DNA from: a virus
IMG/VR virus record: IMGVR_UViG_3300018914_000001
Location: 62,001-126,000 of that record
Length of the DNA: 64,000 nucleotides
Strand: one strand, 5' to 3'
Part shown: one piece after another, positions 21,198 to 55,110 of the stretch
How positions within the stretch are numbered: position 1 is the first letter of the stretch
How the letters are laid out: every line of letters begins with the position of its first letter
Notes under the pieces: generated by a model
Told to the model about the DNA's origin: nothing
Databases searched by the model: none
The model's input: only the letters and a program-made list of their open reading frames with translations
Made by a program: the position numbers and the translations under genes

Positions 21198-21279
21198 ATT
21201 TAACACACTCCTTAGTTGAGTTAAAGTGCTGTTGATGAGTTCCGTTTTAGAAACGCATTAACAGCCCATTAAATCAGGC

Positions 21280-22245
21280 TGTAGAGACTTAATGGAAGAG
21301 GGGGAGAGGAACAGCAATACCCTGCTCTGCAATTGGTTCTAACTTCCAGTTTGCACCTACAAGTATTCTAAATCACGTTCCGCGCCGCCACGCTGTAGGC
21401 TCTAACCTTCCGTTTGCACCCATTGTTGGGACTTACATTGCTGTCTCCTCTCCCTCTCTCCCCTGTCTCGTTTGGAGTGTTAGGAGTGTTAGGAGTTGGC
21501 CTATTCCGCGCTCGTTTGGTGTATCACGCTGTTACACGCTTTCCCATTCTCGACCGCTTGACGCGCTTCACTGCCTCCCTCAACCATTCGCAAGCCACCT
21601 GAAGCATGACTCTGTTGACTAGTCGAGACAAGCCCTATAGCAAGCTATAGGCGTATCGTCGCACGTTCCCTTGGATTCCTCTACCTCTTTGCCTAACTCA
21701 CTGTCGCGCTTAACAGCGTGGACAGGAGACAAGTCCCTTATGGTTTGCTTCACGTATGGTATCGGACGTTAACAGACCTAGCAGGGATAGCAAGAGGATA
21801 GAGGCAGTTCAATGCCTATCCAATCAGGCTACAGTTTGAAGTTGTCAAGGTGCAGTAAAACGGTTAATCCCTCACGTTAGCTTGGGCCTCGATACAGTGA
21901 AGTGGACGGCAACTGCACAAACTTGCCTATAGATCAGCAAGCCCGCCATCAACCACCCTGCTAACGTGCCTCCTCTCGTTTCGTTAGGATTTCACCCCTC
22001 ACCTATGGTGTATCATGCCCTTTGACTGCCCTTTGAAGTCCCCGCCTATAGGGATGGTTCTGGCAATCTCTAGCCATGAGCCTCTAGGACTCTTGGAGTG
22101 ATTTAGACTAGTCGCACAGTGGGTTTTCAGGCTTGCATACGCCATGTTGCACCTGAACCTGTTGGCTGACTAGCATTGCGGTCTATTCAATTCTCTATTC
22201 GGTTGGTGTTGCGTCTTGCGTGTGTTGCGTGTGTTGCGAGATCAG
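21280..22245 (-). ncRNA. Candidate large structured non-coding RNA (~950 nt)
   Basis: This block is clearly GC-richer than its surroundings and has no convincing gene in any frame. A long-range helix of about 17 bp with one bulge joins 21302-21318 to 21437-21454. Inside it are two copies of a 23-nt motif (21335-21357 and 21398-21420, consensus GGYTCTAACYTTCC plus RTTTGCACC, one inner gap). Elsewhere: a hairpin CCTATAG-CAAG-CTATAGG (21634-21651), the palindrome GACTAGTC twice (21617, 22106), GGTGTATCAYGC twice (21518, 22009) and CTCGTTTGG twice. A minus-strand promoter (22244-22272) lies at its right edge, reading toward the small-gene array. Size and phage context recall the GOLLD/ROOL class of giant RNAs; membership is not shown. 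The strand is inferred from the promoter. Confidence 0.6.
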
Positions 22246-22272
22246 AATAGCACACACGAACGATAATTGCAA
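22244..22272 (-). promoter_or_regulatory. Promoter reading into the large RNA and small-gene array
   Basis: Minus strand: TTGCAA, 17 nt, TATTCT, predicted start near 22,237. It is surrounded by CGAAC/GTTCG half-sites (22257, 22276, 22287, 22316, 22351), suggesting a regulated promoter. Confidence 0.5.
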
Positions 22273-22432
22273 ATTCGTACATAATGTTCGTGTTTTTGGC
22301 TATTGATACGCTAAATTCGTGCTATAGTGTGGGGAAAGATGGCCAAAACACGAACATTTGTTTATTGGATAGTCAAGAACTAAACTTCTTCGGAGGGTTA
22401 AATGGATATTTTTCGACAAAAACTGACATAAG

Positions 22433-22580
22433 AAATAGGTCTTCAGACCCTTGACGAAATAGGTTGTAGCACTCAGATTAGAAACATTTTAGTCAAAATG
22501 GGACTTTAGCCCTAAACAAAATAGGACTCTAGACCTATTTTTAGATATTCGTCTAAATGTTTTTTTGGGACTTTAGACTA
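22433..22580. repeat. Four iteron-like repeats, AAATRGGACTTTAGACC type
   Basis: Copies at 22433-22449, 22495-22512, 22518-22535 and about 22563-22579 share the core GG(A/T)CT(Y)TAG(A/C)C(C/T). Several are themselves near-palindromic (GGTCTTCAGACC). TTTCGACA direct repeats follow (22411, 22607, 22617). No gene is visible across 22,250-24,240, so a replication-origin or operator role is likely. Confidence 0.5.
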
Positions 22581-22650
22581 GACATAATTCTTCAAATTAC
22601 GACAAGTTTCGACAATTTTCGACAGCATTCTACAGCTTAACATTATTAAT

Positions 22651-22662
22651 GAACGGGTGTTC
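22651..22662. promoter_or_regulatory. LexA/DinR (SOS) box
   Basis: GAACGGGTGTTC fits the Gram-positive LexA core GAAC-RNRY-GTTC exactly; the outermost consensus C/G bases are T/A here. It is followed by a T-run and TTTACA. Confidence 0.55.
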
Positions 22663-23187
22663 ATAAATTTTTTTGTTTACAAATTGTGTCTATTTCACAC
22701 ACAATTTTCGCTGTCTGCATGGTCAGACTGCATGGGTAGACTCCCCTAGAAATGCCCTCTACAGCCTCTATAAGCCTCTCTGAGCGGTTTTACCCCCTAC
22801 ATAGGTATAATCCCTACCCCCTAGAGCAAAAGGGCAAAAGAAAGCGGTTTCAGAGTTAACGTATTAACTAAGTATTCCGATATGGTTAGTAGGAATTATA
22901 ATATTACCAATAGCAATAGTCGGAATTAAATATTAGTTATACATATCATATTTCTATCTATTTATATGGAATTAATGAAATTTATACTTGACATCCTATA
23001 ATTAACACAAATATACGAACATTTTATTGATGCTAGTGCGTATTGTTCGTATTTTGGGATACCCCCATGTAAGCGCTTTCATTGCCTCTCTAATGCGTTT
23101 ATTATTGCGCTCTACCTTAGGTATCACCTACCTTTGGGAAATTGAATACAGAGGAAATATGGAAAATACCTATACCCCCTATATGCC

Positions 23188-23309
23188 ATACCCCCATAGG
23201 GTATACAGCATACCCCATATAGGTATCTAGAAACCTAGGTATATCAAGGATTATTCCTATCTTGACAAATGGAGAATGTCTAACTCTGCCATATACCCCC
23301 ATAGGGTAT
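23188..23309. repeat. Identical 17-bp dyads plus related CCCC/GGGG repeats
   Basis: ATACCCCCATAGGGTAT occurs at 23188-23204 and 23293-23309; partial versions lie between (CATACCCCATATAGGTAT) and just upstream (TACCTATACCCCCTAT). The dense dyads suggest binding sites for a replication or partition protein. Confidence 0.55.
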
Positions 23310-23389
23310 ATATAGAGAGAATATTTGGAATTGTTTATTTCCCATACGCAACTCTATAGTAAATCAGTGATTAAGTTAATATTTATTAT

Positions 23390-23900
23390 AATGTCATAAT
23401 AATAAAGGGAAAAGTAACATTAAGTAAATGTTAGAAAAAAATTCCATCCAGTATAGATGAAATAAGTAAATAACTGATTTGATTAGAAGAGGTTAATATT
23501 TATGATGAGTAGGATAAAGTAAATATCAACAAGAGAAATATAAATTTATAATAATACTAACTAAGCGTTGAATCATAGAAGTAATATTGAAGTAAGTAAA
23601 TAACTAGTATAATAAGGAAAGAGTAAAGAGAGTAACAAAAGAACACTACAAGATGTGTTAATAAAAGTAAGAGGCATTGTGTGAGAGGTGCTTGAAATAT
23701 ATATGAATAAAAAGAATTAATAGGATTAACATAGGTAAGTAAGCAGGTAGTGAAGTAAACGCTTAGATGTGTGTGAGTGAATGTGAGTAACAATGGAATA
23801 TATTAGGTTATGTTAGGTTATATTAATGTTATGTTAATATAAATATGGGGTAATGTGAATAGTGGTAATGTTGGGATAAGTGGGAATTTGTGTGGGGGAG
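23390..23900. other. C-poor, purine-biased AT-rich tract
   Basis: The plus strand of this 500-nt stretch is almost free of C and rich in A and G, with recurring AAGTAAATAA/GTAAGTAA and, near 23,810, GTTAGGTTAT/GTTATGTTAA units. No gene with a ribosome site is visible. A DNA-unwinding element or origin transition zone is the likeliest explanation. Confidence 0.45.
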
Positions 23901-24135
23901 TAGTCAGCCCCCGCGCTCCTGTTAATATATACGACACTAAAATTAATTTACTTTCCCTTGCTTCTTCGTAAACACGCATAGCAACAGTCAATTAATCGCG
24001 TTTGAATGTGTTAATGAATCGACGCTGAGCTAAGATCCCTGTACTCAGTCTATTATTACACAAAGATCATTAAAACTATTTACATCTATAAGCATTTAAT
24101 ACATAATGTCATCAAATGGTTTTTAGGTGACATCG

Positions 24136-24228
24136 GGAGGGGGGTGGTTTACACTTAAACAGTCAATAAGTTTACGGCCTACTGCCGCAGGTATTCCACC
24201 ACGACAGGCTACTATAAGCCACCCCTCC
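24136..24228 (-). ncRNA. Candidate ~95-nt branched structured RNA
   Basis: The ends GGAGGGGGGTGG and CCACCCCTCC pair to close the element. Inside are hairpins CGGCC-TACT-GCCG-like (24174-24187) and GGCT-ACTATA-AGCC (24207-24220). It begins 13 nt past the stop of the 67-aa minus-strand gene, so it may be that mRNA's 3' structure or a separate RNA. The orientation is not certain. Confidence 0.4.
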
Positions 24229-24241
24229 AACCCATCAGCCC

Positions 24242-25747: not shown

Positions 25748-25776
25748 TTGCTAGAAATGACAAGCTCTGTTATAAT
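25748..25776 (+). promoter_or_regulatory. Promoter of the winged-helix gene
   Basis: TTGCTA, 17 nt, TATAAT. The predicted start falls at the beginning of operator copy A (25784-25802), which fits autoregulation. Confidence 0.65.
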
Positions 25777-25783
25777 TCAGTAC

Positions 25784-25802
25784 AAATAGTTCACCTTTTA
25801 GG
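25784..25802. promoter_or_regulatory. Operator copy A
   Basis: AAATAGTTCACCTTTTAGG is the TAGTTAACCTTTTAGTA element with small changes, placed at +1 of the winged-helix gene. Confidence 0.6.
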
Positions 25803-25817
25803 GGGGAGTGCACCCAA

Positions 25818-26594
25818 ATGCAATTGAATATATTTAATGTTGTTAACTTTAATGAAGAGGAGGGAGGTATCTATATACCTAATGAGATATTTAATGATAT
25901 TCAAGGTAAGCTCAGTGAAATTTCTTCACATGTAGCGTTTGCCTATTCTTATTATTACTTAATCACCTATTTGTATAGGTTTACAAAGTACAGATTAGGA
26001 GAAGGTTATTTTACGCAAGCAAAATTAAAGGAGTTTTTAGGATATAGCGCTACTAACAAGAAGGTCGATTTCATCATAAAAAAGGGTGGGGTATTAGATG
26101 AATTAGGCTACACAGAGACGATTACCGACTACCCTATCGACTGGCATTCTAATGATCTTAACATGATTGTATTCAAATATGTGCGATCATTAAAGAGCGA
26201 AGAAATGCAGGACGTAAATAAATCTGAAGTGAACAGCAGAAACTTCAAAGCCAAGAAGCCTGTCAAGGCATTCATGCGTGAAGGCTATGAATGCGGCACA
26301 TTCTATGGAGTGGAAAACACACATTACATACCTGTATACGATTTCCTACAGTGCATGTACGATAAGGAGCTAGGTATTAATGCCTTCTATCTTTATGGGT
26401 TTCTTAGAATGATGTATGACAAGTTTCCTAGAGGATACAAAGTATCTGCTCCTGAGCTAATGGACTTGACAGGATTAAAAAGAAGCACTCTGTTTAAATA
26501 CATGAGGAAGCTTGAACAGGAGAAATTTATCTCTGTAACCTCTGTGAAGGTGGGAGACAAAAACTTTCCTAATGTGTATAAGGTGATTCGCTGA
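25818..26594 (+). CDS. Winged-helix DNA-binding protein, possible replication initiator or regulator
   Basis: 258 aa, ATG at 25818 after a GGGGGGAGTG site. The C-terminal part (about 195-258) reads as a winged helix: KVSAPELMDLTGLKRSTLFK (the helix-turn-helix), then YMRKLEQEKFISVTSV and a short wing. The N-terminal part (about 35-100) may hold a second such domain (FTQAKLKEFLGYSATNKK). This two-domain layout is seen in plasmid initiators and phage regulators. The three copies of a 17-bp element, one at its own start and two flanking an AT-rich tract just downstream, suggest it binds them. It lies directly upstream of the TubRZ operon. Confidence 0.65.
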   Translation: MQLNIFNVVNFNEEEGGIYIPNEIFNDIQGKLSEISSHVAFAYSYYYLITYLYRFTKYRLGEGYFTQAKLKEFLGYSATNKKVDFIIKKGGVLDELGYTETITDYPIDWHSNDLNMIVFKYVRSLKSEEMQDVNKSEVNSRNFKAKKPVKAFMREGYECGTFYGVENTHYIPVYDFLQCMYDKELGINAFYLYGFLRMMYDKFPRGYKVSAPELMDLTGLKRSTLFKYMRKLEQEKFISVTSVKVGDKNFPNVYKVIR

Positions 26595-26602
26595 ACTTTA
26601 GG

Positions 26603-26744
26603 TACTAAAAGGTTAACTAGACAACCTCCTCTATAATATATCATTATAATATATAGATATATAATATAGGTGTATACTATAAAAAAGTAAATCTATATAT
26701 AAAGTGTACATTATACAGGAGTCCAAATAGTTAACCTTTTAGTA
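26603..26744. repeat. Perfect 17-bp inverted repeat flanking an AT-rich tract
   Basis: TACTAAAAGGTTAACTA (26603-26619) and TAGTTAACCTTTTAGTA (26728-26744) are exact reverse complements about 108 bp apart. The intervening 26632-26715 is nearly all A/T with alternating TATA steps. With copy A at 25784 this makes three sites. Consistent with a small origin (binding sites plus unwinding element) or a looping operator. Confidence 0.7.
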
Positions 26745-26816: not shown

Positions 26817-26988
26817 AAAAGCATCCCAAAAATTACTCCTCCTCCTTCCAGTGACATGGCGGCTTCTAGAGTTGGGATCGGAAGTAGAAGTCGCCTATAT
26901 TAATGAAGAAACACAGCTAAGACAACTTTACCAATATATTTTTTTATGGACTTGCAAGTTTTAGATTTATACTCATATAGTGTTATCA

Positions 26989-27048
26989 AGATCAAGCAAG
27001 ATCGAGCAAAATCCTGTCAGATCAACCAAGATATAGAAAGATCGGATT
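26989..27048. repeat. Centromere-like array, six 10-bp phased repeats (tubC candidate)
   Basis: Consecutive 10-mers AGATCAAGCA, AGATCGAGCA, AAATCCTGTC, AGATCAACCA, AGATATAGAA, AGATCGGATT are in exact helical phase and end 16 nt before the tubR start. Phased repeats upstream of tubR are the known layout of TubR-binding centromeres in Bacillus plasmids. Confidence 0.8.
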
Positions 27049-27064
27049 AGGAGGTGATTACACT

Positions 27065-27367
27065 ATGGGCGACAATTACTTTAGCGAGGTGATTAAAAAA
27101 CTAACTATAGATGACATAAGCATTCTAGCCATCTTGCATGATGATGACGCAACCGAAGTATTCAAGGCTATGAAGGCCAGCCAAGTGTTGAAGGCAAGTG
27201 AAATGACAGAGGCTGTATTTCGCAAAGTGATTGTTAGGCTAGAGGCTACACGCTTCATCGAAAAAACCACATCTAGCAGACATACATCTATATACATTAC
27301 AGAATTTGGTCGCTCTGCTCTACTTGTGGGTGTTCAAAGTAAGATGAAAGGGGATGCTGACCAATGA
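27065..27367 (+). CDS. tubR: TubR-like centromere-binding protein
   Basis: 100 aa, ATG after TAGGAGGTGATTACACT. Small winged-helix fold: helices ISILAILHDDD and ASEMTEAVFRKVIVRLEATR (recognition helix), then a wing around TSSRHTSIYITEFGRSAL. TubR dimers coat tubC and autoregulate the operon. The assignment rests on position: iterons immediately upstream and a tubulin/FtsZ GTPase gene overlapping its stop (ATGA). Confidence 0.8.
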   Translation: MGDNYFSEVIKKLTIDDISILAILHDDDATEVFKAMKASQVLKASEMTEAVFRKVIVRLEATRFIEKTTSSRHTSIYITEFGRSALLVGVQSKMKGDADQ

Positions 27368-28491
27368 TTGGTGTAGTCGGAGTTGGCGGTTGTGGCGGCA
27401 ATATTGCTGATGAGGCGGCGAACTACAATTGTGCAGTGGCGGCAATTAACTTCTCTGAAAAGGACTTAGAATCATTAGAGAACATAAAGGCAAAGCTTCG
27501 TTTGACTGGTTCTGATGGAGTGGGGCGCAACAGAGAGTTGGCAAAATCGCTGTTTATTGACAGTCACGAAGTAGCAATCAATTTTGTAAAAGAGCAATTC
27601 GGAAGCTCTGCAATTGATGTAGTTGTAGTGGCGTTCTCCACCAGTGGCGGCTCTGGCTCTGGCATCGCACCTATGCTGATTGATATTTGTCACAGTGTTA
27701 TGCCTGAGAAAACATTCGTAGCAATGCCCATTATTCCTGACACAACGGAAGCTGATATCAGTCAGATTAACTGTGTCAAAGCGTTTGAAGAACTGTCGCG
27801 TTTAGACGTTGCCATTTTCCCAATCGACAATAACAAAATGAGGAATAAAACACCTAGTGTTGGAAAGAATAGACTATACGAAGCAGTCAATGCCTCTGCA
27901 ATGGGCTTGTTGTTCAAGGCGTATCACTACACTGAAAAGCATTCCAAAGATGGGAATTTTGACAAGAAAGACTTTATCAATGTTCTTCGCACCAAGGGGA
28001 TTGGGCTAATTTCTGAGGTGGACTTCGATACTACTGCCAAGGGTACTATCAATATATCCAAAGAAGGCATCGCACAAGCTGTGCAAAAGTCTTGGGACGA
28101 TTCGATTTTTGCCCCCATCGAATATGAGCAAGTGGTTAAAGCAAGCGTTATTTTCGATGGTGACGAAAACCACATGAAATTTCTCGACTACCAAGCAATC
28201 TTCTCCAAATTCGAAAGTGGTATGCCAATTTACCTTTATGATGGAAATTACCACGAAAGCACTGGTAAAATCATGACAGTCCTAACTGGTCTATCATGGT
28301 GTGTGACTCGCCTGTCGGAAATAGAAAATCTTATCTCCAACAGTCAACAGAAAATCAATTCAATCCTCTCTACTACCGCGAATCAATTCTATGAATCTAA
28401 AGCGGCAATTGATATGTTGTCGCAACTCCAACAACCTTCCAATCAACCCCCTCAAAAGATATCCGAACTAGTGAAAAAATGGAAAAGGTAA
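27364..28491 (+). CDS. tubZ: TubZ-like tubulin/FtsZ-family GTPase
   Basis: 375 aa, ATG overlapping the tubR stop. The N-terminus GVVGVGGCGGNIADEA is the glycine-rich nucleotide loop of FtsZ/tubulin. The tubulin signature appears as SGGSGSG (94-100, usually GGGTGTG), with T5/T6-like DNNKMRN and ASAMGLLF segments after it. TubZ forms treadmilling filaments that pull TubR-tubC complexes apart, segregating low-copy plasmids; clostridial phage c-st carries a homologue of similar length. The C-terminus ends in a basic KKWKR, like the tail that contacts TubR in other systems. Confidence 0.88.
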   Translation: MIGVVGVGGCGGNIADEAANYNCAVAAINFSEKDLESLENIKAKLRLTGSDGVGRNRELAKSLFIDSHEVAINFVKEQFGSSAIDVVVVAFSTSGGSGSGIAPMLIDICHSVMPEKTFVAMPIIPDTTEADISQINCVKAFEELSRLDVAIFPIDNNKMRNKTPSVGKNRLYEAVNASAMGLLFKAYHYTEKHSKDGNFDKKDFINVLRTKGIGLISEVDFDTTAKGTINISKEGIAQAVQKSWDDSIFAPIEYEQVVKASVIFDGDENHMKFLDYQAIFSKFESGMPIYLYDGNYHESTGKIMTVLTGLSWCVTRLSEIENLISNSQQKINSILSTTANQFYESKAAIDMLSQLQQPSNQPPQKISELVKKWKR

Positions 28492-30232: not shown

Positions 30233-33019
30233 GTGAAGTGGAGTCTGCCTTTTCTAAAAAAGCCAAAAGCTTTGGATTGGGAAAAGTTTTTTGAGCTGTA
30301 TCGAGAACCCGTAGTTACACTTTGCATCACACCAAATAATGCGCCAAAGGAAAAAATGAAAATGCCCTCTCACATGCGAGGGGGCGGCGGCTTCTATGGG
30401 AGGGATGAAGAGGACGAAGAGTTTGAAAGCAACAACATTCTGTCGATTATTTCTAGCTTGGCAACAAAGTTTTATCTGCCAGAAAGAGTTAGAATTATCG
30501 ACAAAAAGAAAGTCAAGGTTAAATTAAATGATTTAGTTAGTTTTAAAATTTGTGTAGAGAAAGGTATAATGAAATTTTATTTAACTGTTCCCAAGCGTTT
30601 TGAAAAATCATTTGTTAAAGCGATTCGAAACGATTGGAGTCAAGTGGATATAACACAAGTTGAGGAGAAAGTTATCAAATTTAATCCAAATAAAGCAAAA
30701 GCAATGGATGTTTTTCTTCGACACCATTACGCCTTATCTATCCAACACAATGGGGTTAAAGAAAGAATGGGAGGCATGAGGATTCAAAAAGAGAACATGT
30801 TTCAAAGTCAACTTGCATCTGTTGCCAGCCAAATGGATGACAATGACAAGCTTCTTGTGGACTTCAACATTACACCTGTTCTTGATGATTGGAGAGCAGA
30901 AGCAAAAGCTGTACTGAAGAACTTCAAGAATGGTCAGTCTGCAAGACGAGCTACCACACCTTTTCATGTAGCTTTATATAAAATAATGGACACACTGGTT
31001 GTTATCATGGAAGAGACAACAAAGCTCGTAGAAAGCTTTGCCACAAATGAGGAGGTGGAAGAGAAAAAGGACGAGCAACCATTTGAAATACAGTATTCAG
31101 ATCATAAGATCAAGCAAGATACACATGGATTCAAAACTCAGATCAGAGTTGTTGCAGAATCCAAAGATAGCAGAAAATCAAAGCACATTCTCAAGGGAGT
31201 CCAAACTGCTTTCGAACAATTAAATGGAGACAACAGCTTTGTATGTAAAGAGATCAAGACTCAAAATGGCATCAAAGTGACAATCAAAGCAGTTGAGGAA
31301 AACAAGCCTGTGCTTATGAAGCCTTCGAATCTGTTCTTTGAAGGCGAAATGAACAAGATGCTCACTTTGCCTAATCGCAAATTGCTGAAGGAATACAAAA
31401 AAGTTATTGACCAAGATGGACATACCAGAGCGGAAGTTGACAACGACTTCTTTGACTCTAATAAAGATGCTATACCATTCGCAATCACTCTTGATAAACA
31501 GCCTAAAACGCTCTATTTCGGCGGCTATGAGCGTGAATGGTGGACTGAGAAGGGGCGTAAGGCACTTAGCAAACAAGCTCTAGATGACAGATGTGAAATA
31601 AACGTTGTTTCTGGTAAAAAAGGCTCTGGTAAATCAGAATGGTTAAAAACGCAGATTTTGCATACGTTCGCCGCTGATGCAAAGAATCGCGAGGAATGGA
31701 AGATTCGAAGCAAAAGCGTGGTAGCATTTGATGTTGCAGATGGTCAAATTATAACTGACGTGTGGAATCTAATCCCTGAGTGGCTTAGGGACAGGGTTAT
31801 TATACTCAATCATTCTAATCATGCAAGACCTATACCACTTAACTTTGCTGATATTGAGGAATTTAACAAGGAGGTATTGCAAGACCCTGACTTTGCCTTT
31901 GAACTTGCTGAAATGGAAATGAAGCTAATTGAAGATGCAGTAGTAGGAGAAAAATCAATCAACGTACAGAACTGGCTTCCTTGGGCTTTGCAATGCGCTC
32001 ATATCGCTGATAAAGATTATGGGCTTCCAGAGGCTATTCGTATACTTGTAGACAACGATTTCAGAGAGCAAATTGCAACAAGCATCACTGACGAAGAGCT
32101 TCAAATGACTTTGGAGACATACAATGAAATGGCAAGTGAAGGTAAAAATAAGATCGTTGTAAATGCTATACAGAATAGACTTAACCAGCTTCGTAAAGAC
32201 AAGAAGTTATGGCAGTGCATTGCTCAAAGACCAATAAGAGACGAAAACGGAAAGTGCGAGATGAATTGGAGGAAGTGGATGGATGGTGATGAGGATGGCG
32301 CATATCTTGTTCTCATCTATATCCCTAAGAGTGGAGTAACGGAACAATTTAGACACTTCACCTTTGCTCACTACTTCGTAAAAATATGGAATGTTCTTCT
32401 TTCAAGGGAGAAGGGCTTCGCTGGTCGTGAGTATAGACCTGAAACCCTTGTGGTTGTGGATGAATTACATCAAATTGTTCATATCCCAATTGTTGTACGT
32501 GTATTACTGGACATCTTTAAAGAGGTTAGAAAATATTCTGGTCGATACACTTTTACTCTTCATGGTTGGTCTTCTCTTGCGTCTGCTGGAAGAAATGATG
32601 CAAGTGCAATTAAAAAGTCAATCATGGAGAATGGTTGTAATCTCATCTTCTTGCAAGGCGGTAGTGATATGTTTAGTGAATTTGAAGAGATTCTTGAACC
32701 TTATACAATGGCGGATTTTAACAATCTCATGAAGATGGAGCATTGCGGCATCTTCTCTATCAGATGGAAGGGGAAGACGCACAACTTCCAAGCGCACTTG
32801 CCGAAGATGACAGAAGCATATATGAAAAAATACGATAATATGGAGCTGAATAATCTGGCAAGTCTTGCTTCGAAGTACAGCAGAGACAGAGAAGATGTTC
32901 GTAAGGATATTCTCAACAGAATTAAGGATATGGCGAAGAACAGCATCAAGAATTACAATCAAGTAGAAATGGAGGATGGTCAAGATATTGATTCCTTGGG
33001 TGAGGAGGATGTAGCATGA
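30233..33019 (+). CDS. VirD4/HerA-like FtsK-family ATPase
   Basis: 928 aa, GTG at 30233 after AAGGAGGTGAATTAAC. The Walker A is GKKGSGKS (461-468) and the Walker B is LVVVDELHQI (about 739-748). The stretch before it (ITLDKQPKTLYFGGYER) and the ending NLIFLQGGSDMF are typical of TraG/VirD4 coupling proteins and HerA pumps. The N-terminal 450 residues resemble no known domain; a TM pair was not seen, so membrane attachment may use the 55-aa partner. It probably pumps or docks DNA. It overlaps the replication-relaxation gene by ATGA. Could alternatively serve packaging or segregation. Confidence 0.8.
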   Translation: MKWSLPFLKKPKALDWEKFFELYREPVVTLCITPNNAPKEKMKMPSHMRGGGGFYGRDEEDEEFESNNILSIISSLATKFYLPERVRIIDKKKVKVKLNDLVSFKICVEKGIMKFYLTVPKRFEKSFVKAIRNDWSQVDITQVEEKVIKFNPNKAKAMDVFLRHHYALSIQHNGVKERMGGMRIQKENMFQSQLASVASQMDDNDKLLVDFNITPVLDDWRAEAKAVLKNFKNGQSARRATTPFHVALYKIMDTLVVIMEETTKLVESFATNEEVEEKKDEQPFEIQYSDHKIKQDTHGFKTQIRVVAESKDSRKSKHILKGVQTAFEQLNGDNSFVCKEIKTQNGIKVTIKAVEENKPVLMKPSNLFFEGEMNKMLTLPNRKLLKEYKKVIDQDGHTRAEVDNDFFDSNKDAIPFAITLDKQPKTLYFGGYEREWWTEKGRKALSKQALDDRCEINVVSGKKGSGKSEWLKTQILHTFAADAKNREEWKIRSKSVVAFDVADGQIITDVWNLIPEWLRDRVIILNHSNHARPIPLNFADIEEFNKEVLQDPDFAFELAEMEMKLIEDAVVGEKSINVQNWLPWALQCAHIADKDYGLPEAIRILVDNDFREQIATSITDEELQMTLETYNEMASEGKNKIVVNAIQNRLNQLRKDKKLWQCIAQRPIRDENGKCEMNWRKWMDGDEDGAYLVLIYIPKSGVTEQFRHFTFAHYFVKIWNVLLSREKGFAGREYRPETLVVVDELHQIVHIPIVVRVLLDIFKEVRKYSGRYTFTLHGWSSLASAGRNDASAIKKSIMENGCNLIFLQGGSDMFSEFEEILEPYTMADFNNLMKMEHCGIFSIRWKGKTHNFQAHLPKMTEAYMKKYDNMELNNLASLASKYSRDREDVRKDILNRIKDMAKNSIKNYNQVEMEDGQDIDSLGEEDVA

Positions 33020-33909
33020 CCAAGAAAAAGGGTTGGTACGAGCGCGTGGAACAAGCGAGGATTACATCTGATTGGGTAAAGCTCAATTGTAATAACATTA
33101 CAGATAGAGAGATGGAATTGCTAAGAATCATTCACAAGAGGAAGTATGTACGGCGTGACCATTTAGAGGTTATCCATCCCGCTTACAGAGACATCCCGAA
33201 TGGAGCGATTGTGCTTAATCGCTCCATTCGTAAGCTTTTCGAAAAAATGTGCATTGACAAAGTGCATGAGCAAACAGGATATAAGGAAGGAAATAAACCA
33301 TGTATTGTAGCATTAGACAGAGCTGGGGCTATCATTCTTGGAGTGAGGTTTAATAGGCGTATTAAACAACACAAGACAGTTAAAGGTGGAAATATCCATG
33401 TTCATAAACGAGAAGTGCCCATTCAATTCTTTCATGTAAATGGTGTCAATCAACTAGAAGTGGATACTATAAGATTTTGCATTAAGAATGAATGGAAGTT
33501 AGTCAGATGGGATATAGAGGTTGCAAGAAAATTTATGTACAATAAAGAAAATATTAAACTTTCACCTGATGTTTTTATGATTATGGGCATAGGGAAAAAG
33601 CCATTGATTTCATTTGTGGAGTATGACACAGGAACAGAGGATAGAGGAAATTCTAAGAATTTTCCCATGATTGAGGAGAAATTAAATAAATACAGAAAAT
33701 TTAGGCAATCAGGACATTGGATGAAAGAAGGATGGTTCAAACGATTAAAAGAAGCAGGTTTTCCACTTATTATCTTTGTTACAGAAGATGAGAGACGATT
33801 AGACTTTGTAAAGAAAAAGGGAGATGAATTTAAGCTTCAAGTTGAGGTGGTTTTGTCAAAAGATTATATAAGGTTGCTAGAAAAATTAAAGGCTAACCTA
33901 TTAGGCTAG
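33016..33909 (+). CDS. Replication-relaxation (MobC-like) family protein
   Basis: 297 aa, ATG at 33016. Starts with a winged-helix: DREMELLRIIHKRKYVRRDH, then LNRSIRKLFEKMCIDK, the pattern of the Replic_Relax family. The C-terminal half (PLISFVEYDTGTEDRGN..., FPLIIFVTEDERRLDFV) fits the family's endonuclease-like fold. These proteins occur beside VirD4-like ATPases on Bacillales plasmids and are thought to help open origin DNA. Its stop is inside the terminator at 33888-33918. Confidence 0.75.
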   Translation: MTKKKGWYERVEQARITSDWVKLNCNNITDREMELLRIIHKRKYVRRDHLEVIHPAYRDIPNGAIVLNRSIRKLFEKMCIDKVHEQTGYKEGNKPCIVALDRAGAIILGVRFNRRIKQHKTVKGGNIHVHKREVPIQFFHVNGVNQLEVDTIRFCIKNEWKLVRWDIEVARKFMYNKENIKLSPDVFMIMGIGKKPLISFVEYDTGTEDRGNSKNFPMIEEKLNKYRKFRQSGHWMKEGWFKRLKEAGFPLIIFVTEDERRLDFVKKKGDEFKLQVEVVLSKDYIRLLEKLKANLLG

Positions 33910-33918: not shown

Positions 33919-34120
33919 TATCATAAATTACAACAACTTTGTTGTCAATGAGCATGTCAATATAAATAATTTCACTCCCTTCTTCAATGATAACCCAAAA
34001 ATAATGGTTAAACTCTTTTAGATCATAACATGGAACAAAATCAAATCCACTTCGGATAAGGTTTGGATCATCGCTACTTAATTGATAACTGTACCCTATT
34101 GTATACAGATGATTTCTCAT
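33893..34120 (-). CDS. Hypothetical 75-aa protein coupled to the recombinase
   Basis: ATG at 34120 overlaps the recombinase stop (ATGA). Acidic and aromatic, beta-rich (YFWVIIEEGSEIIYIDMLID). It may be a recombination directionality or accessory factor by position only. Confidence 0.6.
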   Translation of the reverse strand: MRNHLYTIGYSYQLSSDDPNLIRSGFDFVPCYDLKEFNHYFWVIIEEGSEIIYIDMLIDNKVVVIYDKEKASLIG

Positions 34121-35151
34121 TCTAATACCCCCACTTTACTCAGCAATTCGATTTGTGTTCCTCTGCTTGCGTTTTGTATGAGTGCAAGCAGTTCCTCTCT
34201 GGACAGGTGTTCCAACGGCGACAAGTCTACCTTGCGTCCCATTTGTAGCGCGGCAAATGTAATGTGATTTTTGTGCTTTTCTACATAATACTTCCAAGTT
34301 GTTTGGATGTTTGAGTGATTGCCATGAATAGCCGCCTTTTGCAAATCGCCAGTTTCTTCCAGAACCCACATAACACCCATCTTCTTAATGGAGTGGAAGC
34401 TGATTTCACGCTCTTCTTCGATCCCCATTAGCGGGACAAGCTCATCAGTAACTGCTCTTTGAAGTGTCCGTTTGCAAATTTTAAACAACTTGCCGTCAAA
34501 CCTTTTTGTGAGTTGGACAACCTTTTCAAATACGTTGTAAGGGATGGGTTTTTCATCTTTCTTCTTCCCTTTGTCTAAAACTGTTATCAAGACATACCCC
34601 TCATGTTGAGTGAAGTTGTCAATAGTGAGCTTGTGCAATGCTTCCAAGCGAATGCCAGTTCTAGCCGCCAATTCGATGGCAAGACTCTTTTGTTCACCGC
34701 TTGGAAGTGACTTGGCAAGTTCAATCATTTTTTCGACTTCATCCCATGTGAGCCAACCAATAGGCTTACTTTCGCCTTTGACTGTCTCTACATCAAAAAT
34801 GGGAAGATGGATTAGCGTAGGGAAGTCTTTTGCCAAATGTCCAAATACTTGCCTCACTACAGACATTTTGTGATTGACAGTGCTTGCGGCATAGCACTCT
34901 ACAAGCTCGTTTTTGTATTGAAGAATGTCGCTGTGCAAAATGCCGCCTTCACCTGTTTTGATGTCATCTACAGTGAGTTCATGAAGTTCTTTGCGGCACA
35001 TATAGCGGAAGAACTGGCGAATATCCCCCTCATAAGAAACCGCCGTCCGTTCTGAGTTGATGCGCTTATCATTAAGGAAAACCTCAATCATGCTTCCCAC
35101 ATCGCGCACACCAGAATGAAGCTTTACAACCCTACTTCCAATAGCTGTCAT
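34117..35151 (-). CDS. Tyrosine recombinase with altered catalytic box
   Basis: 344 aa, ATG at 35151 after GGACGGATAACTA. N-terminal SAM-like core-binding domain (about 20-115), then catalytic domain. Visible active-site elements: R168 (TGIRLE), K194 (DKGKK), H253 in FHSIK, H279 (GNHSNIQTTWKYY) and Y288/Y289. The second Arg (HxxR) is Lys256 instead. The change could reduce cleavage. Known parallels are SPbeta integrase-like proteins, including MrpR, a repressor built on this fold. It may be a phage integrase, a dimer-resolving enzyme or a regulator. Divergent from the RecD2-like helicase gene. Confidence 0.8.
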   Translation of the reverse strand: MTAIGSRVVKLHSGVRDVGSMIEVFLNDKRINSERTAVSYEGDIRQFFRYMCRKELHELTVDDIKTGEGGILHSDILQYKNELVECYAASTVNHKMSVVRQVFGHLAKDFPTLIHLPIFDVETVKGESKPIGWLTWDEVEKMIELAKSLPSGEQKSLAIELAARTGIRLEALHKLTIDNFTQHEGYVLITVLDKGKKKDEKPIPYNVFEKVVQLTKRFDGKLFKICKRTLQRAVTDELVPLMGIEEEREISFHSIKKMGVMWVLEETGDLQKAAIHGNHSNIQTTWKYYVEKHKNHITFAALQMGRKVDLSPLEHLSREELLALIQNASRGTQIELLSKVGVLE

Positions 35152-41503: not shown

Positions 41504-41588
41504 GGGTGAGCGGTAACGATGGCGAGTTACGGTGGACTGTAAATCCATTGCTTAGGCTTAGGGGGTTCGAATCCCTCCTCACCCACCA
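41504..41588 (+). tRNA. tRNA-Tyr(GTA)
   Basis: Acceptor GGGTGAG/CTCACCC, anticodon loop CTGTAAA, T-arm TTCGAAT and encoded CCA. It has the extended variable arm normal for Tyr. Confidence 0.9.
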
Positions 41589-41593
41589 ATTAT

Positions 41594-41668
41594 TGAGCAT
41601 TCTGTATAATGGGAGTACGCCATCCTTACAAGTTGGAGGCGGGGGTTCAATTCCCTCATGCTCAACCA
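41594..41668 (+). tRNA. tRNA-Val(TAC)
   Basis: Acceptor TGAGCAT/ATGCTCA, anticodon loop CTTACAA with one weak pair in the anticodon stem, and CCA encoded. Confidence 0.75.
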
Positions 41669-41681
41669 TGCTCAACCATAC

Positions 41682-41741
41682 TCAGTGTCAAATACTCGAA
41701 GTGAGGGACATGGTGTTTAGCATCCTCCCACCTGACACTGA
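41682..41741 (+). repeat. Stem-closed spacer element (60 nt)
   Basis: TCAGTGTCA and TGACACTGA (9 bp) enclose a smaller GAGG/CCTC hairpin region. Not a tRNA. Confidence 0.65.
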
Positions 41742-41746
41742 TAAAT

Positions 41747-41822
41747 GGGGCGTTAGTTCATCTGGTAGAACGTTGCATTTGCACTGCAAAGGTGAGCGGT
41801 TCGAGTCCGCTACGCTCCACCA
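41747..41822 (+). tRNA. tRNA-Ala(TGC)
   Basis: Acceptor GGGGCGT/ACGCTCC, anticodon loop TTTGCAC in a TTGCA/TGCAA stem, encoded CCA. Confidence 0.9.
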
Positions 41823-41825
41823 ATA

Positions 41826-41899
41826 ACCACATCTGGCTCAGGCAACAGAGCAAAAGTCGATGGTAGCTCTAGCTGATGGTTCGATTCCATCAATGTGGT
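41826..41899 (+). ncRNA. tRNA-like element without CCA
   Basis: It has a 7-bp acceptor (ACCACAT/ATGTGGT), a D-like arm GCTC-AGGCAACA-GAGC and a T-arm GATGG-TTCGATT-CCATC. But it has no pairable anticodon stem and TTA instead of CCA follows. Either a decayed tRNA or a tRNA mimic. Confidence 0.6.
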
Positions 41900-41903
41900 T
41901 TAT

Positions 41904-41978
41904 GGCTCTCTAGCTGAGATGGATTAGCATTCGCCTGAAAAGCGAAGGAGATTGGATCGTTACCAATGGGAGCCACCA
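41904..41978 (+). tRNA. tRNA-Phe(GAA)
   Basis: Acceptor GGCTCTC/GGGAGCC, anticodon loop CTGAAAA, CCA encoded. The T-loop is ATCGTTA, unlike the usual TTCRANN. Confidence 0.82.
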
Positions 41979-42006
41979 CAAATCTCGAAAAATTTTAGTT
42001 AACATG

Positions 42007-42035
42007 TTGACAATTAGACCGAGATATGGTAATAT
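42007..42035 (+). promoter_or_regulatory. tRNA-cluster promoter 2
   Basis: TTGACA, 17 nt, TAATAT, followed by ATAGTCAAGAGGTT, as at promoter 1. It splits the cluster into two transcription units or boosts the second part. Confidence 0.75.
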
Positions 42036-42059
42036 ATAGTCAAGAGGTTAACAAATAAT

Positions 42060-42133
42060 GGCTTATTGGTATATGGGTAACATACTCGCCTGTCACGCGA
42101 GAGTAACGAGTTCGAGCCTCGTATAAGCCGCCA
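42060..42133 (+). tRNA. tRNA-Asp(GTC)
   Basis: Acceptor GGCTTAT/ATAAGCC, anticodon loop CTGTCAC, discriminator G, CCA. Confidence 0.9.
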
Positions 42134-42135
42134 AT

Positions 42136-42210
42136 GGTTCTTTAACTCAGAGGTAGAGTACACGACTGATAATCGTGCGGTCAATGGTTCGAATCCATTA
42201 GGAACCACCA
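42136..42210 (+). tRNA. tRNA-Ile(GAT)
   Basis: Acceptor GGTTCTT/AGGAACC, anticodon loop CTGATAA, CCA encoded. Confidence 0.9.
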
Positions 42211-42213
42211 AAA

Positions 42214-42266
42214 GCTATTTACATCATACAGCGAGTGCGCATTAGCTAGATAGAAGTGTAAATAGC
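42214..42266 (+). repeat. Stem-closed spacer element (53 nt)
   Basis: GCTATTTACA and TGTAAATAGC (10 bp, perfect) enclose 33 nt between the Ile and Asn tRNAs. Confidence 0.7.
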
Positions 42267-42274
42267 CTCAACAT

Positions 42275-42350
42275 TACAGGGTAGCTCAGCAGGTAGAGCG
42301 CGTGACTGTTAATCACGTGGTCGTGGGTTCGAATCCCGCTCCTGTAGCCA
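42275..42350 (+). tRNA. tRNA-Asn(GTT)
   Basis: Acceptor TACAGGG/TCCTGTA, anticodon loop CTGTTAA, CCA encoded. Confidence 0.9.
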
Positions 42351-42353
42351 TAT

Positions 42354-42428
42354 GGCGCATTCTTCTATGGGTTAGGAATCCTGCCTTTCAAGCAGGGAAA
42401 ACGAGTTCGAGTCTCGTATGCGCTACCA
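42354..42428 (+). tRNA. tRNA-Glu(TTC)
   Basis: Acceptor GGCGCAT/ATGCGCT with a terminal G-T pair, anticodon loop CTTTCAA, CCA encoded. Confidence 0.85.
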
Positions 42429-42434
42429 AATTAT

Positions 42435-42509
42435 TGGGGAGTAGCCAAATGGAACGGCAACAGGTTTTGATCCTGTCATTCGTGAGTTCGATTCTCACCT
42501 CCCTTGCCA
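42435..42509 (+). tRNA. tRNA-Gln(TTG)
   Basis: Acceptor TGGGGAG/CTCCCTT (weak first pair, as common in Gln tRNAs), anticodon loop TTTTGAT, discriminator G, CCA. Confidence 0.85.
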
Positions 42510-42545
42510 AATTTTATCTAGTATATAAGGGGGCGATAAATAAAC

Positions 42546-42665
42546 ATGATTTTTAAAGAATATTCAAATCCTCAAGCTACTGGTTGGAAAGGTTGGATTG
42601 AAAACTCTCAGGGTACAACAATTGGCTTCGTTAAGCTAACTGGTGAAATTATCTTTAACTGGTAG
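42546..42665 (+). CDS. 39-aa protein encoded inside the tRNA cluster
   Basis: ATG at 42546 after AAGGGGGCGATAAATAAAC. MIFKEYSNPQATGWKGWIEN then SQGTTIGFVKLTGEIIFNW: a beta-rich miniprotein. It sits between the Gln and His tRNAs and must be translated from the tRNA precursor or its processed fragment. Confidence 0.55.
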   Translation: MIFKEYSNPQATGWKGWIENSQGTTIGFVKLTGEIIFNW

Positions 42666-42678
42666 ATGGCATAAATAT

Positions 42679-42766
42679 GGTGGGTATGGCGAAATGGAAA
42701 ACGCGACAGGCTGTGAACCTGTTGAGGATGTACCTCTTGTGGGTTCGAGTCCCACTATTCACCCCA
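42679..42766 (+). tRNA. tRNA-His(GTG) with an extra-long variable arm
   Basis: G-1 (42679) opposite C73 and the GTG anticodon (CTGTGAA loop) define His. Acceptor GTGGGTA/TATTCAC, CCA encoded. The variable region forms GAGG-ATGTA-CCTC, a class II arm not expected in His tRNAs. Confidence 0.82.
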
Positions 42767-42776
42767 AAATATTAAT

Positions 42777-42853
42777 GGGCGATTGATGGAATTGGCATAC
42801 ATATGCGCCTTAGAAGCGTAGTTTTAGGAGTTCGACTCTCCTATCGCCCACCA
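42777..42853 (+). tRNA. tRNA-Leu(TAG) with a short variable loop
   Basis: Acceptor GGGCGAT/ATCGCCC, anticodon loop CTTAGAA, CCA. The D-arm resembles Leu, but the variable region is only about 5 nt (GTTTT) where Leu tRNAs normally carry a long arm. Confidence 0.8.
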
Positions 42854-42860
42854 ACCTTTT

Positions 42861-42937
42861 TAGACGCTTACAGCAAATCATAAATCTTACGCTATTCAAA
42901 TAATTGGTGATTAATATTAAAATGATTGGCGCGTCTA
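42861..42937 (+). repeat. Stem-closed spacer element (77 nt)
   Basis: TAGACGC and GCGTCTA (7 bp) enclose an AT-rich 63 nt with no readable anticodon arm; tRNA-length but not a tRNA. Confidence 0.55.
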
Positions 42938-42942
42938 GAATT

Positions 42943-43039
42943 TAGGCACATACAGCAACCTACAATTATCTAAAAGATAAAATTATTAACTTACATTGAT
43001 GAATGCTGTTTGCTTCACACTTTTAAATTGCTGTGCCTA
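42943..43039 (+). repeat. Stem-closed spacer element (97 nt)
   Basis: TAGGCACA and TGTGCCTA (8 bp) close the element. Inside, ACAGCAA can pair with TTGCTGT or TGCTGT, giving alternative folds. Confidence 0.55.
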
Positions 43040-43048
43040 GTTAATTAT

Positions 43049-43124
43049 TGCGGAGAGGACAAATGGTAAGTCGCCTGACTCATTATCAGGAAATAGTTGG
43101 TTCGATTCCAACCTCGCGCAACCA
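43049..43124 (+). tRNA. tRNA-Met or Ile2 (CAT), bulged acceptor
   Basis: Anticodon loop CTCATTA in a CCTGA/TCAGG stem; T-arm GTTGG-TTCGATT-CCAAC; CCA encoded. The acceptor TGCGGAG pairs with CTCGCGCA only if one G is bulged. Elongator Met and lysidine-type Ile cannot be separated by sequence alone. Confidence 0.7.
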
Positions 43125-43125
43125 T

Positions 43126-43214
43126 ATGGGTATAGTTCCGTAGCTTGGTAGCGGTCTTGCTTTGGACGCAAGTGGCGCAAGCCCTCGTAGGTTCGAATCC
43201 TACTGCCCATACCA
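43126..43214 (+). tRNA. tRNA-Pro(TGG) with a long variable arm
   Basis: Acceptor ATGGGTA/TGCCCAT, anticodon loop TTTGGAC in CTTGC/GCAAG, CCA. The variable region TGGCGCAAGCCCTC forms GGC-GCAA-GCC, unusual for Pro. Confidence 0.8.
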
Positions 43215-43217
43215 TAT

Positions 43218-43293
43218 GCTGGAGTAGCACAATTGGCAGTGCAGTCGCCTTGTAAGCGAAAGGTTGCGAGTTCAAGTCTTGTCTCCAGCACCA
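43218..43293 (+). tRNA. tRNA-Thr(TGT)
   Basis: Acceptor GCTGGAG/CTCCAGC, anticodon loop CTTGTAA, T-loop TTCAAGT, CCA encoded. Last tRNA of the cluster. Confidence 0.9.
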
Positions 43294-54831: not shown

Positions 54832-55110
54832 ATGATGGCAGTTTATAATGGTATTTGTATATATGGTACGCCACAAGAAATTGCGGAGTTTGTCAAGACT
54901 ATGGAGATTAAGTTTACTACGACTATTGCGCCAACCAAAATTACGTCTGGTACTATCACTGGTTCTGGAACGAATTTTACTGGAAGTTTCATTAATCATA
55001 ATGAGGCTGTTGCTACTCTTGCTGAATGTACAGCTAACATTGGAGAAGAGATTGGAGAGCAATTGAAGCAGTTAGTAGATGAGGTCAAGAGACGCGGTAG
55101 CTCTCTATAA
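54832..55110 (+). CDS. Hypothetical 92-aa protein
   Basis: ATG at 54832 after GGAGGTGAAACAAT. A Thr/Gly-rich middle (ITSGTITGSGTNFTGSFINH) then helices. Unknown. Confidence 0.6.
   Translation: MMAVYNGICIYGTPQEIAEFVKTMEIKFTTTIAPTKITSGTITGSGTNFTGSFINHNEAVATLAECTANIGEEIGEQLKQLVDEVKRRGSSL

Follow-up and report, generated by a model that had tools for sequence, protein, structure and literature searches.

The window analysed here, to which all unlabelled coordinates refer, comprises positions 62001-126000 of a 158,514-bp virus record. In it, a gene for a protein of 258 amino acids (Rep) is accompanied by three copies of the site TAGTTMACCTTTTAG: A (25784-25801), B (26603-26619, inverted) and C (26725-26744). 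Partition genes follow, and genes of a plasmid-like block lie beyond them. The features are:

25748-25776, plus strand: predicted promoter of the initiator gene (TTGCTA-17 nt-TGtTATAAT, extended -10)
25784-25801, plus strand: site copy A, proposed autoregulatory operator (AAATAGTTCACCTTTTAG; differs from copy C at one base)
25818-26594, plus strand: putative replication initiator gene, rep (258 amino acids, two predicted winged-helix domains; phrog_19047 family)
26603-26619, minus strand: site copy B, left arm of the proposed origin (exact 17-bp reverse complement of 26728-26744)
26632-26706, no strand: A/T-rich core, proposed DNA unwinding element (86.7% A+T)
26725-26744, plus strand: site copy C, right arm of the proposed origin (AAATAGTTAACCTTTTAGTA; best match of the relatives' site model contig-wide)
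26987-27043, no strand: proposed tubC centromere, tandem repeats of about 10 bp (CAAGATCAAG-like; Tandem Repeats Finder, 5.7 copies)
27065-27367, plus strand: tubR, 100-amino-acid DNA-binding partition adaptor (PDB 4asn TubR, E=1.4e-17)
27364-28491, plus strand: tubZ, tubulin/FtsZ-like partition GTPase of 375 amino acids (Pfam Tubulin, E=7.8e-16)
33016-33909, plus strand: Replic_Relax (replication-relaxation) protein, plasmid-like block (PF13814, E=4e-13, above the curated cut-off)
34117-35151, minus strand: Xer-like tyrosine recombinase, plasmid-like block (PF00589, E=5e-13)

Copies B (26603-26619, TACTAAAAGGTTAACTA) and C (26728-26744, TAGTTAACCTTTTAGTA) are the reverse complement of each other at all 17 bp, the perfect inverted partners that the original prediction had described. 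Copy A (25787-25801, TAGTTCACCTTTTAG) differs from C at one base over 15 bp, and the identity of A and C is 17/18 bp (AAATAGTTMACCTTTTAG). A search of the 64-kb window with up to 3 mismatches bore out the claim of three 17-bp copies around one winged-helix gene: it returned A, B and C only (expected, 0.18), and 0 of 100 shuffles reached three sites. These are the only copies in the window but not in the contig, which has two more at 54,840-54,981. No array of direct iterons was found near the initiator gene, where A, B and C stand alone with B and C inverted, and an Rfam scan of 20.5-30 kb returned no RNA family at the gathering threshold.

The predicted promoter matches the consensus at 10 of 12 positions, has a TG ahead of the -10 element and places the expected +1 near 25783. 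Copy A lies between this promoter and the ribosome-binding site of the gene, the start codon of which is at 25818; because it directly follows the extended -10 promoter, it covers the predicted +1, as had been proposed, and runs into the ribosome-binding site. At the other end of the gene, the B arm starts 8 bp past the stop codon. The tract between B and C, previously called nearly pure A/T, proved less extreme (77% A+T over the whole 105-bp spacer and 86.7% in the 75-bp core), and its core (26632-26706) has the highest A+T content of all 75-bp windows in the 158.5-kb contig.

Genes around the module

The tubZ product matched PDB entries 3v3t (E=1.1e-16) and 4xcq (TubZ; E=3.7e-16). The partition system beside rep differs among relatives, being TubZR here, ParM in pPLP3 and ParA in Sundance. 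A RecD-type helicase gene also lies downstream of the rep module, and Xer-like homologues occur near rep in many large relatives. At 30233-33909, a large protein that resembles a PJN02 protein annotated as a TrwB-like/type IV coupling-type ATPase is followed by the Replic_Relax protein, as in Tyroviruses, forming a conjugation-like block inside a phage. Fourteen predicted tRNA genes are clustered at 41504-43293, one of which (41826-41900) has an odd four-base anticodon (atgg).

The first and last 127 bases of the contig are identical, which fits a genome of about 158.4 kb that is either closed or terminally redundant. Genes are on the minus strand to the left of the module and mostly on the plus strand to its right. 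The cumulative GC-skew minimum, at 23.3 kb and about 3 kb from the site, coincides with this switch; among relatives, the minimum is near the module in pPLP3 and 20 kb off in the Bacillus amyloliquefaciens plasmid. As GC skew follows gene strand, we did not count it as independent evidence for an origin. The roughly 3 kb at 21207-24241, which adjoin the minimum, have hardly any convincing open frame and contain several A/T-rich tracts and short repeats, including ATACCCCCATAGGGTATA twice (23188 and 23293).

Rep, its relatives and the inverted pair

Rep matches phrog_19047 over residues 4-241 (E=1.8e-63), a family that the phrog catalogue labels 'transcriptional regulator' and that was matched by all 51 family members scanned. 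The C-terminal part has a weaker similarity to phrog_270, a replication initiation protein (E=4e-6), and the C-terminal domains of Rep and of family members matched phrog_270, phrog_678 and phrog_186. Of the 51 members, 13 had matches to DnaD-like helicase loaders, and 9 and 7 to two replication initiation families. Pfam matches of the family are weak and to generic regulator HTH families. No known Rep family scored in Pfam, whether for Rep (at E<=1) or, among the 25 families listed, for the 51 members; this includes Rep_3 and RepA_N.

An AlphaFold2 model of Rep based on a 51-sequence alignment (pLDDT 92, pTM 0.91) has a secondary structure that we read as two winged-helix domains. The Pfam matches of Rep include no helicase domain. 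A BFVD fold search gave four matches with E<0.001, one of which is annotated 'Replication initiator protein'. The PDB fold search with the model gave no full-length match, the best ones mostly covering single winged-helix domains, and the PDB sequence search with Rep returned single winged-helix domains only. The C-terminal winged-helix domain resembles phage replication initiators.

Homologues of rep were detected by tblastn in Alicyclobacillus phage KKP_3916, Brevibacillus phage Sundance and Geobacillus virus E3, in Tyroviruses (for example, PJN02, FADO and BcoS-136) and on plasmid records of Paenibacillus larvae, B. amyloliquefaciens, B. subtilis and Paenibacillus cellulosilyticus. The circular plasmid records with family members are 128-166 kb in length; the plasmid status of the P. 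larvae records is unconfirmed (PMC5454195). A profile scan of IMG/VR added 59 further rep loci. In a protein tree that includes homologues from Tsamsa, PJN02 and BcoS-136, Rep is sister to the KKP_3916 homologue (support 95/81; 44% identity).

Many of the IMG/VR loci are contigs of about 12-18 kb that, on the basis of sequence and gene order, carry capsid- and terminase-like genes. The small contigs examined over their full length have recombinase-like genes at an end; a terminal repeat was sought in the elements of about 16 kb and not found. Three IMG/VR contigs of 16-17 kb (L094, L095 and L097) encode capsid- and terminase-like proteins, have recombinase-like ends and share the initiator and inverted-pair signature; they are possibly satellites or small phages. 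In Cytobacillus kochii, a 982-amino-acid protein that we take to be a YonO-like phage RNA polymerase is encoded right after the initiator gene (L003:6202-9150); L021 and L028 have similar proteins after rep.

We defined an inverted pair as arms that are at least 14/16 identical and 70-220 bp apart, 3' of the rep stop codon. Of 53 non-redundant relatives, 37 have such a pair, in most cases with an A/T-rich tract between the arms, compared with 10/636 random windows, 6/1060 shuffles and 0/223 post-stop windows of other ORFs. In Sundance and the L047 genome, it lies slightly further 3' of rep. KKP_3916 has kept the site core at the positions of A, B and C, with AAAAGGTTAACTA at B and C and AAAAGGTTAACT at A. 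Across the family, the arm sequence varies by subfamily and the layout is kept: the arms are AAAAGGTTAACTA in the window phage and KKP_3916, and AGGTTGCTTAAACC-type in Tyroviruses. In loci with the core AAAGGT in each of the two arms, the core is directed inward. We rejected the exact core AAGGTW as a universal motif, as the arms have diverged and an inward pair is found in 14/53 loci (control, 23/1339). Arm sequence and Rep identity co-vary significantly but weakly (rho 0.27; control segment, 0.16).

A weight matrix of the site, trained without the window and without KKP_3916, ranked copy C first and copy A fourth over the 158.5-kb contig; on account of its divergent inner half, copy B did not reach the top 12. 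In pPLP3, the family site model scores highest at the C arm of the candidate origin of that plasmid. One perfect DnaA box lies 22 bp ahead of the rep stop codon. Since the family origins show no enrichment of such boxes (1 seen versus 1.05 expected), we attribute it to chance.

Upstream counterparts of copy A occur in KKP_3916, Tyroviruses, L047 and L065. Most small-element relatives lack them. The proposed autorepression is therefore not shared by the whole family, and we rejected copy A as a general feature; it is confined to subgroups. Given that the B/C pair is widespread and A is found only in subgroups, we regard the inverted pair with its A/T core as the widespread element and A as an added control.

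This distribution bears on a different account of the locus, which has no origin: Rep is a regulator with three operators, of which A would serve to repress rep itself, and B and C to repress a neighbouring promoter. The 'transcriptional regulator' label of phrog_19047, the generic HTH matches in Pfam and the good promoter overlapped by copy A all speak for such a regulator. However, B/C is the conserved part, present even where A is not, and usually flanks an A/T-rich tract directly after rep, whatever gene comes next. The two modelled winged-helix domains and the initiator-like similarity also point away from it, as do the partition genes that adjoin rep and the family members on circular plasmid records. 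We therefore consider a regulator without an origin to be improbable.

A second cassette without a rep gene

The contig-wide scan identified a second inverted pair at contig 54,840-54,981 (L074:14840-14981; window -7160 to -7019, outside the window), 33.7 kb from the rep cassette. Its inverted arms match B and C and are about 122 bp apart; the left arm is identical to the B arm at 34/39 bp, with similarity that runs to about 26643. The cassette is intergenic, and the contig contains no second rep gene. Remote cassettes, each like the first cassette of its own genome, were also found in KKP_3916, PJN02, BcoS-136, Tsamsa and the B. amyloliquefaciens CQN-2 plasmid, in each case scoring above the best of six shuffles, and were not found in Sundance, pPLP3, the L047 genome or E3. 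The tracts of both cassettes are A/T-rich in 5 of the 6 genomes, the exception being KKP_3916, in which the remote core is 63% A+T. A DUF262/GmrSD_N gene lies within a few kb of the remote cassette in the window phage, KKP_3916 and PJN02. This cassette is the least expected feature of the module; the main options are that it is a second origin or a copy-control site.

The two cassettes may have exchanged the roles that we assign to them, the remote one being the real (for example, lytic) origin and the rep-adjacent one a control or incompatibility site, or the reverse. That both follow the same plan, with matching arms in six genomes and tracts that are A/T-rich in all but one, is in keeping with this. 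Yet the rep-adjacent copy is the widespread one, four genomes yielded no remote counterpart and the remote core of KKP_3916 is not A/T-rich, which makes the exchange unlikely in our view.

Inverted arms are also typical of recombinase sites, and the Xer-like genes near rep in many large relatives, together with the existence of a second cassette, could suggest a recombination or dimer-resolution site for a neighbouring Xer-type recombinase. However, the recombinase gene lies about 7.4 kb from copy C here, and the small capsid/terminase-carrying elements have the cassette and no recombinase beside rep. The arms are 75-200 bp apart, too wide when compared with known tyrosine-recombinase core sites, which are far narrower, and a recombination site would give no role to copy A in the rep promoter. 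We regard this explanation as highly improbable.

A broader model can be put forward tentatively: these giant phages may carry two Rep-controlled origins that stay in sequence step within a genome, the rep-adjacent one for plasmid maintenance and the remote one for lytic replication or for copy control by cassette pairing, and the same replicon may also drive the capsid/terminase elements of about 16-17 kb. With the second cassette comes the question whether a single initiator is used at two origins, at different stages of the life cycle.

A candidate phage-plasmid replicon and its counterparts

We consider it likely that the locus is the initiator–origin–partition module of a phage-plasmid, autorepressed through copy A; the virus is a giant Bacillales-type phage that probably persists in the lysogen as a plasmid. 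What the sequence itself shows is the sites with their geometry and their conservation alongside the gene family, the two-winged-helix model, the partition genes and the second cassette. The origin reading draws on the pair after the stop codon (37/53 versus 0/223), on copy C as the top site of the contig, on the initiator-like C-terminal domain and on the adjoining partition cassette. At the level of sequence, this supports the compact self-regulated origin originally predicted, with the restriction that autoregulation through A is supported in some subfamilies only. The original prediction had overlooked the phage nature of the record, the tubC–tubR–tubZ genes next to rep and the second cassette.

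From this anatomy and from known initiator systems, we infer the following course of events. Rep would act as the initiator and bind the inverted sites B and C just 3' of its own gene, and the two bound complexes would strain the A/T-rich DNA between them until it opens; the opened tract could then be loaded with the replicative helicase. Rep bound to copy A, at the transcription start and ribosome-binding site, would repress its own synthesis and so set the rate of initiation. The tubC–tubR–tubZ genes would distribute the copies at cell division, maintaining the phage as a plasmid. The remote B/C-type cassette would share Rep as its ligand, whether as a second origin or as a copy-control site.

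Gene content has so far been the only ground for proposing plasmid prophages in giant phages of the Bacillus group. With a defined initiator and a recognizable origin, a fragment of about 1 kb would suffice to test the proposal directly. If true, the phrog_19047 'transcriptional regulator' family would become a replication initiator family, and its origin signature would offer a means of detecting and typing phage-plasmids, as well as small phage-like elements, in Bacillota.

Papers on Tyroviruses annotate a replication initiator (Thrax gp22; Kirov; in Izhevsk, a 'lambda O-type replication initiator') and suggest that the prophage is a plasmid (PMC9703825, PMC10454425, PMC7685451); the rep homologue of PJN02 is likewise annotated as a replication initiator. 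As judged from its homologues in Tsamsa, PJN02 and BcoS-136, three members of that phage group, Rep very probably belongs to the same family as the Tyrovirus initiator. The partition system here is TubZR, whereas theirs is ParM. What was already known is that the gene is called an initiator in relatives; in the passages searched of the three papers, we found no description of the origin, the sites or a second cassette, and the open-licence literature yielded no earlier account of the origin or the second cassette.

The order of tubC-like repeats, TubR and TubZ is the usual one of the TubZRC (type III) systems of Bacillus plasmids and phage c-st; here TubZRC merely adjoins the replicon, the initiator of which would instead be Rep. 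The initiators of Rep_3 iteron plasmids have two winged-helix domains, and these replicons are autoregulated and contain an A/T-rich region for unwinding. The module shares with them the two domains (as modelled) and the A/T-rich region, and autoregulation is proposed for it; unlike them, it has no Rep_3 match, an inverted pair instead of a direct iteron array and no enrichment of DnaA boxes.

Lambda O is an initiator of the winged-helix type, and the phrog matches suggest that the C-terminal winged-helix domain of Rep is related to phage O proteins and replisome organizers. In ori-lambda, inverted-repeat initiator sites adjoin an A/T-rich region (PMC5043065). In lambda, four O sites and then the A/T region lie within the O gene, whereas here a single pair flanks the tract after the stop codon and an extra site lies in the rep promoter. 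In SaPIs, the origin is immediately 3' of rep and is built of repeats of the initiator site (PMC7581432), and the proposed origin here would likewise lie directly 3' of the initiator gene. By contrast, the SaPI Rep is a helicase that acts on many short iterons, and the protein here is a helicase-less one with two predicted winged-helix domains and one inverted pair. The module combines features of SaPI origins and of ori-lambda in a different protein family.
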